This document shows positions 49,415 through 51,989 of a stretch of DNA of 52,399 nt, one piece after another (the stretch's first letter is position 1; each line of letters begins with the position of its first letter). The stretch is from an uncultured Coriobacteriaceae bacterium. Lineage in GTDB: Bacteria; Actinomycetota; Coriobacteriia; Coriobacteriales; Coriobacteriaceae. Below the pieces are notes generated by a model. That model saw nothing but the letters and a program-made list of their open reading frames with translations. It searched no databases and was not told the DNA's origin. The position numbers and the translations under genes were made by a program. The stretch lies in NCBI GenBank assembly GCA_944319885.1, contig CALUFC010000013.1:1-52399 (forward strand), written 5' to 3'.

Positions 49415-50281
49415 ATGCTCGTCAATGCAGCAGACATGCTCAAGAAGGCCGAGGCCGGTCACTACGCCCTCGGTGCCTTCAACACCAACAACCTTGAGTG
49501 GACGCTCGCCATCCTGCAGGCCGCCGAAGAGGCGAAGAGCCCGTTGATCATCCAGTGCACCGGCGGCGCTGCCAAGTGGATGGGCAGCTACAAGGTGTGC
49601 GCCGACATGGTGAAGGCCGCCGTCGAGGCGCTCGGCGTCACCGTGCCTGTGGCGCTGCATCTCGATCATGGTTCGTATGAGGACTGCTTCAAGTGCATCG
49701 AGGCTGGCTTCACCTCCGTTATGTACGACGGCTCTCACGAGGAGACCTTCCAGCTCAACCTCGACCGTACCAAGGAGATCGTCGAGCTCGCCCATTCCAA
49801 GGGCATCTCGGTTGAGGCCGAGGTAGGCGGTATCGGCGGCACCGAGGACGGCGTGACCTCCAACGGCGAGCTGGCCGACCCCGAGGAGTGCAAGCAGATC
49901 GCCGATCTGGGCGTCGACTTCCTTGCATGCGGCATCGGCAACATCCACGGCGTGTACCCGGCCGATTGGGCGGGCCTCTCCTTCGAGCGCCTGGGCGAGA
50001 TCAAGGCCCTCACCGGTGATCTCCCGCTCGTGCTCCATGGCGGCACCGGCATCCCCGAGGACCAGATCAAGAAGGCCATCGAGCTCGGTATCTCCAAGAT
50101 CAACGTGAACACCGATCTCCAGCTCGCCTTCGCTGCCGCCACCCGCGGCTACATCGAGGCCGGCTCCGATCAGCAGGGCAAGGGCTACGATCCTCGTAAG
50201 CTCCTCAAGCCCGGCCGCGACGCTATCGTTGCGCGCACCAAGGAGCTCATGGAGCAGTTCGGCTCCGTCAACAAGGCGTAG
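49415..50281 (+). CDS. fba: Class II fructose-bisphosphate aldolase
   Basis: 288 aa. Zn and catalytic residues lie in LHLDHGSYEDC (H82, D84, H85), EAEVGGIGGTEDGV, GNIHGVYP, LHGGTGIPEDQI and KINVNTDLQLAF. Length fits the short class II (GatY/FbaA-like) group that includes both fructose- and tagatose-bisphosphate aldolases. Fructose bisphosphate is preferred because the window encodes fruK. TTGGAGG ribosome site. The 190 bp upstream hold no other gene. Hairpin D follows 25 nt past the stop. Confidence 0.92.
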   Translation: MLVNAADMLKKAEAGHYALGAFNTNNLEWTLAILQAAEEAKSPLIIQCTGGAAKWMGSYKVCADMVKAAVEALGVTVPVALHLDHGSYEDCFKCIEAGFTSVMYDGSHEETFQLNLDRTKEIVELAHSKGISVEAEVGGIGGTEDGVTSNGELADPEECKQIADLGVDFLACGIGNIHGVYPADWAGLSFERLGEIKALTGDLPLVLHGGTGIPEDQIKKAIELGISKINVNTDLQLAFAAATRGYIEAGSDQQGKGYDPRKLLKPGRDAIVARTKELMEQFGSVNKA

Positions 50282-50306: not shown

Positions 50307-50379
50307 GGCCCGGTATATCCTTCAGCGAACGTCCTCGGCCTTTGGCCTGCGGATGGTTCGCCTCCGGATATACCGGGCC
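50307..50379 (+). other. Long conserved-core hairpin D (copy 4 of 4), 3' of fba
   Basis: The 14-bp perfect outer stem is GGCCCGGTATATCC (50307-50320) with 50366-50379. The inner stem is GCGAAC/GTTCGC and the core reads GTCCTCGGCC, loop TTT, GGCCTGCGGA. TTTTG follows, so this copy could terminate transcription. The inner stem has GGCC/GGCC where the others have GGCGC/GCGCC, again still paired. Confidence 0.65.
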
Positions 50380-50482
50380 TTTTGTATCTCGCATCGATGC
50401 AGTAAAGGGGAAGGCGGCGGTGCCAGTTTTGATCTTGTGGGCACAAGGCGTTCCGGATGTGGTACGATGTGCCGGTGCATGT

Positions 50483-50569
50483 GCCCGAGTGGCGGAATTG
50501 GCAGACGCAGTGGACTCAAAATCCACCGGTAGCGATACCGTAAGAGTTCGAGTCTCTTCTCGGGCACCA
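50483..50569 (+). tRNA. tRNA-Leu (anticodon CAA)
   Basis: The acceptor stem GCCCGAG (50483-50489) pairs with CTCGGGC (50559-50565), followed by discriminator A and an encoded CCA (50567-50569). The anticodon stem GTGGA/TCCAC encloses loop CTCAAAA, giving CAA, which reads UUG. A long variable arm (CGGTAGCGATACCG) marks a class II tRNA. The T-loop GTTCGAGTC is present. It lies between fba and the infC leader. Confidence 0.95.
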
Positions 50570-50716
50570 CAGCGCCCTCTTCGTGGGGAAAGCATGAAGG
50601 ACGGGGCGGTGTGGTACCATGCACAACGCGTTGCGAACGCAGCGCATGCCAAGTGGGACGCAGGTCCCCACCTTTCGGCGCCATACGGTAGCTGTCTGGT
50701 CTCAACAACACATGCT

Positions 50717-50778
50717 CGGCATCTCCATGCCGTATCACAGTGCTTTGAGGCCCGGTTACCATGCGGTACCGGGTTTTT
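50717..50778 (+). terminator. infC leader terminator/attenuator
   Basis: CGGCAT-CTCC-ATGCCG (50717-50732) is a perfect small hairpin. It is followed by CCCGGTTACC-ATGC-GGTACCGGG (50751-50773, one bulge) and TTTTT (50774-50778). The terminator ends ~10 nt before the infC ribosome site, so it must be bypassed for infC-rpmI-rplT expression. That is the layout of L20- or IF3-regulated leaders. The region 50570-50801 has no reading frame of its own. Confidence 0.65.
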
Positions 50779-50801
50779 CGTGTTTGAGGGAGGTAACAAA
50801 A

Positions 50802-51362
50802 ATAGCTAAGCACGATACCACGCGTATCAACGACGAGATCACCGCTTCGAGGTGCCGTCTCATCGGGGTCGATGGTTCCCAGCTGGGCCTGTTCGACATC
50901 CGCGATGCCCAGCGCGTCGCAGACGACCAGGGGCTCGACCTCGTCGAGATCGCTCCGAATGCCGATCCGCCGGTTTGCCGCGTCATGGACTATGGCAAGT
51001 ACAAGTACCAGCAGGCCATGAAGGCGAAGCAGGCTCGTAAGAACCAGTCGAGGGTCGAAGTCAAGGAAATGAAATTCCGCCCGAAGATCGACGTTGGTGA
51101 CTACGAGACCAAGAAGGGCCATGTGCTCCGCTTCCTCAAGAAGGGCGCGCGCGTCAAGATCACCATCATGTTCCGTGGTCGCGAGATGGCGCATCCCGAG
51201 CAGGGCCTGAATGTGCTCGAGCGTCTTGCAGAGGATCTCAAGCCGTATGCAACGGTCGAGTCGCAGCCCAAACTCGAGGGCCGCAACATGCTGATGCTCC
51301 TCGCCCCCATCAAGGGCGCCTTCGATGAGAAGGCTGCCTCGGGCGATGGCAAGAAGAAGTAA
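50802..51362 (+). CDS. infC: Translation initiation factor IF-3, apparent AUA start
   Basis: 186 aa. [85 protein letters not shown] and MLMLLAPI cover the whole IF3 fold. No ATG, GTG or TTG lies at the right place. GGGAGG (50788-50793) is followed 8 nt later by ATA (50802) and AKHDTTRIN. The closest in-frame alternative is TTG 50784, inside or before the ribosome site. Rare start codons are how infC autoregulates in E. coli (AUU). First gene of infC-rpmI-rplT. Confidence 0.88.
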
Positions 51363-51388: not shown

Positions 51389-51580
51389 ATGCCTAAGATG
51401 AAATCGCACAGCGGTACCAAGAAGCGTTTCCGCGTTACCGGCTCCGGCAAGATCATGCGCGCCAAGGCGTACAAGAGCCACATCCTTACCAAGAAGACCA
51501 CGAAGCGCAAGCGCGGCTTCCGTCAGGAGGAGACGGTTTCCTCCGCCGACCGCAAGACGGTCGTTTCCCGTCTCGCATAA
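51389..51580 (+). CDS. rpmI: 50S ribosomal protein L35
   Basis: 63 aa, highly basic, [20 protein letters not shown] start and [14 protein letters not shown] near the end. AAGGAG site 6 nt upstream; 26 bp after infC. Full length for L35. Confidence 0.97.
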
Positions 51581-51629: not shown

Positions 51630-51989
51630 ATGGCACGTGTGAAGCGCGCTCTCAACGCTCGTAAGCACCACCGCACCATCATGAAGCAGGCCAAGGGCTA
51701 CTATGGCGCTGCCTCCCGTACGTACAAGCATGCCAAGGAGCAGGTGCAGCACTCGCTCCAGTACCAGTATCGCGATCGCCGCAACAAGAAGCGCGATATC
51801 CGTCGTCTCTGGATTACCCGCATCAACGCCGCCGCGCGCATGAACGACATTTCCTATTCCCAGTTCATGCACGGCCTTAAGCTCGCCGGCATCGAGCTCG
51901 ACCGCAAGGTGCTCTCCCAGATGGCCTATGAGGACATCGAGAGCTTCAACGAGCTCGCCGCCATCGCCAAGAAGGCGCTCGAGGCGTAG
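51630..51989 (+). CDS. rplT: 50S ribosomal protein L20
   Basis: 119 aa: [58 protein letters not shown]-like core and [14 protein letters not shown] end. It binds 23S rRNA early in 50S assembly and in many bacteria represses its own operon by binding the leader. Here the candidate target is the hairpin region before infC. AAGGAG site. Confidence 0.97.

Follow-up and report, generated by a model that had tools for sequence, protein, structure and literature searches.

Where does translation of IF3 begin, and how is its operon controlled, at a locus where the infC reading frame has no standard start codon in the right place and is preceded by a terminator-bearing leader? The locus lies in the window, the whole 52,399-nucleotide stretch of DNA analysed here (contig CALUFC010000013.1, from an uncultured Coriobacteriaceae bacterium), in which the gene order is tRNA-Leu, leader, infC, rpmI and rplT (Table 1). 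The tRNA-Leu gene is the sole match in the window at gathering scores in an Rfam scan. A terminator-like hairpin is also observed at 50363-50380, 3′ of an ORF (49415-50281) that we take to be aldolase-like.

Table 1 Features of the infC locus in the window (coordinates are those of the window)
Feature	Position	Strand	Evidence or remark
tRNA-Leu (CAA)	50483..50569	+	ARAGORN; immediately 5′ of the leader, outside the switch
Extended −10-like promoter element TGTGGTACCAT (inferred)	50610..50620	+	TGNTANNNT-like sites in relatives
Variable 5′ hairpin GCGTTGC-GAAC-GCAGCGC	50628..50645	+	fold; sequence differs among relatives
Conserved core, match to model R1	50649..50710	+	68.7 bits in own genome
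AAG	50651..50653	+	46/46 in alignment A2; corresponds to AAG in the L20_leader consensus; candidate AA dimer of an L20 site
Hairpin P1, GGGAC-GCAG-GTCCC	50655..50668	+	5/5 pairs with two-sided changes; 98.8% of cells paired
ACC, OFF-fold partner of GGU 50698-50700 (two consecutive G-C pairs)	50670..50672	+	100/100
Hairpin P2, CGGC-GCC-ATAC-GGT-A-GCTG, bulged A at 50690	50676..50694	+	6/7 pairs two-sided; 97.1% of cells paired
Antiterminator 5′ strand, GGTAGCTGTCTGGT and following bases	50687..50713	+	overlaps P2 and GGU
Intrinsic terminator hairpin, stem CCCGGTTACC/GGTACCGGG at 50751-50773	50749..50773	+	sequence, fold; 5′ arm 50749-50760 is the antiterminator 3′ strand
T5 tract of the terminator	50774..50778	+	sequence
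Shine-Dalgarno GGGAGG	50788..50793	+	sequence, start regions of relatives
infC (IF3, 186 aa) from ATA	50802..51362	+	TIGR00168, 228.6 bits (cut-off 60); start conservation
rpmI (L35)	51389..51580	+	TIGR00001
rplT (L20), candidate ligand gene	51630..51989	+	TIGR01032

The infC start codon

The IF3 reading frame is opened by ATA (50802-50804), positioned 8 nt 3′ of the Shine-Dalgarno (SD) sequence, and the only near-cognate start nearby in the same frame, TTG 50784, lies 5′ of the SD and therefore cannot use it. An ATG at 50619 is also in the infC frame, which is open upstream, and initiation there would give a protein of 247 aa. As the frame is open there by chance, the window alone cannot settle the start, and it is settled by relatives. 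IF3 was found in 57 of the 60 relatives searched, and a motif scan of named genomes contributed 71 further infC loci, some from the same species as the relatives; 106 distinct Coriobacteriia start regions were compared. The homologous codon is AUN with an SD upstream in 105 of these (91 ATA, 8 ATC and 6 ATT). In 31 of the 105, the frame contains no ATG, GTG or TTG from the preceding stop codon to the AUN; a further 6 offer just a GTG or TTG no more than 9 nt upstream, and the remaining 68 have an ATG, GTG or TTG in frame further upstream. Judged from this comparison, the AUA start of infC is conserved at the level of the class and is no peculiarity of this locus, because AUN is found in nearly every locus and 31 of the loci have no standard alternative. 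The reading of GGGAGG, 8 nt, ATA and IF3 sequence in the first-pass annotation, together with its statement that no standard start is found at the right place, is thus upheld.

The single exception is L057 (G057), where infC starts with ATG, possibly through loss of the AUN start. Of the relatives searched, its genome is the most distant (59% IF3 identity), and its match to the leader model R1 described below is weak at 16.7 bits.

With the reading frame extending open 5′ of the AUA, automatic annotation of the window is likely to place the infC start at 50619 and so give IF3 (50619-51362, 247 aa) 61 spurious N-terminal residues. Since gene callers seek ATG, GTG or TTG, we infer that the N-terminus of IF3 is likely misannotated in many Coriobacteriia genomes, and infC misannotation of this kind has been reported for Streptomyces (PMC5472188).

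A conserved core in the infC leader

The aligned leaders share a core with the order AAG, any base, P1, C, ACC, a short spacer, P2 with a bulged base, a spacer and GGU. The model R1 was built from Coriobacteriia only, and it gives exactly one match per locus in all 100 loci of alignment A3, which was aligned to R1 and is hence fitted to the model. In A3, 98.3% of pair cells hold standard pairs, and 11 of the 15 pairs show two-sided changes, with 99 such cells compared with 22.3 (sd 3.6) in shuffles; sliding the pair partners abolishes this covariation signal. An alignment made with MAFFT (A2; 46 of 58 short-P1 cores, the near-identical ones being dropped) agrees, with 32 two-sided cells versus 8.6. 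The ACC/GGU pairs show zero variation and therefore contribute no covariation.

R1 matches 216 of 246 Coriobacteriia genomes at E ≤ 0.01, and 200 of the 219 more complete ones, adjacency to infC having been checked for those loci whose flanking stretches were available. The motif scan of named genomes gave at least 119 matches, and among the 80 loci listed, infC lies 124-190 nt downstream in 71, 5 are Coriobacteriia stretches that end before infC, and 4 (L066 from Cryobacterium, L078 from Halomonas, L085 and L145) are without infC and look like chance. Across the phylum R1 gives 83 matches, 57 of them outside Coriobacteriia, where most score below 21 bits and are probably due to chance; four of these outside matches were inspected, and three were at infC while one (L236) was not. 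The window's own genome contains one more match to R1 at E ≤ 0.01 besides that of the infC leader.

The leader had been delimited as 50570-50801. This range ends one base before the ATA, and 50570-50609 is probably promoter and not transcribed leader, because the extended −10-like TGTGGTACCAT follows directly. Sites resembling TGNTANNNT precede the core in 64 of 104 leaders compared with 7.6% of shuffles. Simple scans of the window for promoters and terminators reported neither the TGTGGTACCAT promoter nor the leader terminator, the stem of which is bulged.

Terminator and predicted antiterminator

The leader set was composed of 104 of 128 sequences, 22 being identical to others and two (L010 and L057) falling outside the segmentation pattern. 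An intrinsic terminator is found between the core and the start codon in all 104 distinct leaders and is therefore not a chance feature, in agreement with the terminator with a T5 tract, ending about 10 nt before the ribosome site, that had been described in the window. The 3′ half of P2, together with GGU and the bases that follow, pairs with the 5′ arm of this terminator. Over the 104 leaders, the mean duplex energy with the leader's own arm is −21.9 kcal/mol, as compared with −17.15 kcal/mol (sd 0.30) when arms are swapped among species, and the own-arm value was reached by none of 2000 permutations. By this measure the pairing between the 3′ half of the core and the terminator 5′ arm is species-specific.

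GGU therefore has two alternative partners. Pairing with the upstream ACC leaves the terminator free, while pairing with the downstream ACC/CCGG breaks it. The ON and OFF folds of the window leader have energies of −62.9 and −62.2 kcal/mol respectively, a difference of 0.7 kcal/mol, and near-isoenergetic folds are as expected of a switch. Relative to shuffled sequences, the fold of the whole leader is only moderately stable (z of −2.41).

Comparison with the L20 leader family

Even with the threshold relaxed to E ≤ 5, Rfam L20_leader (RF00558) does not hit the leader in the window, and none of the 246 Coriobacteriia genomes has a match over its gathering threshold. In the window's own genome three weak matches (22.7 bits at most) were observed, none at infC, and were treated as chance. 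The family consensus, for the printing of which alone L058 served, reads AAG, a, hairpin, C, gCC, spacer, hairpin with a bulged a, CA and GGc, and the Coriobacteriia core corresponds to it in each element. In the infC leader of another member of the Coriobacteriales (L045), L20_leader aligns in the same register at a sub-threshold 27.2 bits, and a sub-threshold alignment of 20.3 bits is found in the infC leader L048. The infC leader L234, from another class of the phylum, is matched by R1 at 29.5 bits and at the same place by L20_leader at 65.6 bits, over the cut-off of 58.7. On the minus strand of this stretch (35-268), downstream of infC, a T-box leader match of 92.3 bits (cut-off 93) is also seen.

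In a phylum sample of 296 genomes, 42 have an L20_leader match at E ≤ 0.001, one of them over the cut-off. All 21 L20_leader loci inspected (20 from the phylum sample plus L238) have infC in the stretch, and R1 recovers 9 of the 21; in the stretch around the 32.2-bit match of L239 there is no infC. Among three controls, Bacillus subtilis, Thermotoga maritima and Lactococcus lactis, two scored over the cut-off and one, by elimination probably T. maritima, scored below it, a hint that the leader may reach beyond Firmicutes and Actinomycetota.

The features of RF00558 are found in the Coriobacteriia leader in its position directly 5′ of infC-rpmI-rplT, in its core of AAG, H1, C, nCC, H2 with a bulged A and GGn, and in a terminator that overlaps the antiterminator and lies 5′ of the infC ribosome site. 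The published determinants of L20 recognition are two consecutive G-C pairs and an AA dimer (PMC7247131); in the leader, the invariant C-G pairs are present in 100 of 100 loci and the AA dimer in 46 of 46. A 23S pattern search gave no match in the own genome. The LSU model was used to retrieve 23S genes from relatives, and the H40-H42 region of L061 was aligned but allowed no confident mapping of the leader, resemblance to 23S rRNA being judged by the published criteria alone. Because the L20_leader consensus matches in register and bridging leaders are found by both models, we regard the Coriobacteriia leader as related to the L20 leader but diverged from it. Common descent appears likelier than convergence, if unproven. 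The leader is not filed as a formal member of RF00558, as the curated score is missed.

Proposed control of the infC operon

We propose that in this bacterium, probably a Collinsella or a near relative, infC-rpmI-rplT is under two stacked controls, with a diverged L20-type attenuator 5′ of an IF3-sensitive AUA start, and we place the probability of this reading at roughly 0.8. When free L20 is absent, GGTAGCTGTCTGGT would pair with the terminator 5′ arm as antiterminator, allowing RNA polymerase to read through. When L20 is in excess of 23S rRNA, it is predicted to bind the AAG / P1 / ACC-P2-GGU core and thereby to keep GGU and GCUG off the terminator arm, so that the terminator would form before the infC ribosome site. 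IF3 would in turn discriminate against the AUA start and so limit its own synthesis. Three points we infer from analogy: L20 as the ligand, a rise in termination upon its binding, and an action of IF3 at the AUA codon. In B. subtilis, L20 bound at the H1/H2 junction stabilizes the terminator (PMC6097659), and homology to the Bacillus L20 leader is the best reading of the attenuator sequences; for E. coli, PMC5472188 cites feedback by IF3 at the AUN start of infC.

Several other accounts of the locus have to be weighed against this proposal. That AUA merely sets a low level of IF3, with no feedback by IF3, is an unlikely account but one to be taken seriously, given that AUN starts are also known where control by IF3 plays no part, as in ccpN and citZ of S. 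aureus (PMC13009471); the retention of AUN in 105 of 106 loci and the E. coli feedback just cited speak against it. A conserved attenuator that responds to a ligand other than L20, such as L35, IF3 or some other factor, would suit the failure of the curated L20_leader model throughout the class. We consider such a ligand improbable, given that the bridging leaders are found by both models, one of them above the cut-off, that AAG and CC/GG, both matched here, are the determinants published for L20 recognition, and that rplT itself sits in the operon.

The remaining accounts concern the start and the hairpin, and each is less probable still. Initiation further upstream, at TTG 50784, ATG 50619 or elsewhere, with ATA as an internal Ile codon, is compatible with the open frame in the window and with the standard in-frame starts of 68 loci, and is nevertheless very improbable, as it is impossible in 31 loci, would place coding sequence in what is a structured leader of varying length, and ignores an SD spaced for the AUN codon. 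The hairpin might similarly be taken for the plain terminator of the tRNA-Leu gene, which lies immediately 5′ without another terminator in between; this has very little to be said for it, since core and terminator are kept in other families and in relatives with no tRNA in the available stretch (L011, L013-L017 and L024). Leader-peptide attenuation, in which a ribosome and not a bound protein would govern a terminator near the gene as in amino-acid operons, is likewise very improbable: an SD-preceded ORF of at least 6 codons is found in 4 of 104 leaders, under the 14% of shuffled sequences, and this rarity speaks against it. The preferred reading thus remains an L20-type attenuator followed by an IF3-sensitive AUA start.

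Discussion

The first-pass annotation had suggested that this lineage combines the two controls. Both architectures, an AUN start and an L20_leader-like core, are indeed observed, whereas the notion that their combination sets the lineage apart does not hold: the infC gene of B. subtilis has an ATT start plus an L20-controlled attenuator (PMC6097659; PMC1805508), so that joining a non-AUG infC start to an L20 attenuator is no new principle. The new part seems to be the leader in Coriobacteriia. According to PMC6097659, the distribution of the Bacillus L20 RNA is narrow and limited to Firmicutes; among the r-leaders tabulated in a 2020 survey, none for L20 comes from Coriobacteria or any other Actinobacteria (PMC7247131), and in a literature search of open-licence papers no published report of an L20 leader in Coriobacteriia was recognized. 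With L20 as the predicted ligand, L20 attenuation of the IF3 operon would be extended to this gut class, and a class-wide alignment is available for testing the evolution of one L20 site. More tentatively, and at somewhat less than even odds, the L20 leader may be an ancient means of regulating the infC operon, common to Firmicutes and Actinomycetota (perhaps also Thermotoga, on a weak Rfam signal), as a rule accompanied by an AUN infC start, with the Coriobacteriia form as its unrecognized G+C-rich descendant.

Viral contigs were also searched for IF3. An alignment query returned 20 homologues (L185-L204), either phage-borne or host contamination, and a single-protein IF3 query for Firmicutes infC loci found none in these contigs.

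Of the known systems, the L20 leader of the B. subtilis infC-rpmI-rplT operon (RF00558) is the closest in design, sharing the operon, the core elements, the terminator directly 5′ of infC and a non-AUG start, while the Coriobacteriia form is G+C-rich, has other stem sequences and a long antiterminator helix, and scores below the family cut-off. The start of E. coli infC is likewise non-AUG, though it is AUU there, as in B. subtilis (PMC1805508), and AUA here; the E. coli operon departs from our proposal in that L20 acts on rpmI/rplT translation and infC is outside L20 control (PMC10931766). An AUA start of infC, supported by Ribo-Ret, is found in S. aureus (PMC13009471), which belongs to another phylum and is compared by start codon only. 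Streptomyces infC also has an actinobacterial AUN start, which is ATC in that genus, and the passages on it in PMC5472188 mention no leader attenuator. Finally, the L20 r-leader candidate of deltaproteobacteria differs from the Coriobacteriia leader in structural scaffold and resembles it in the CC/GG pairs and AA dimer, which were proposed there to mimic rRNA (PMC7247131).
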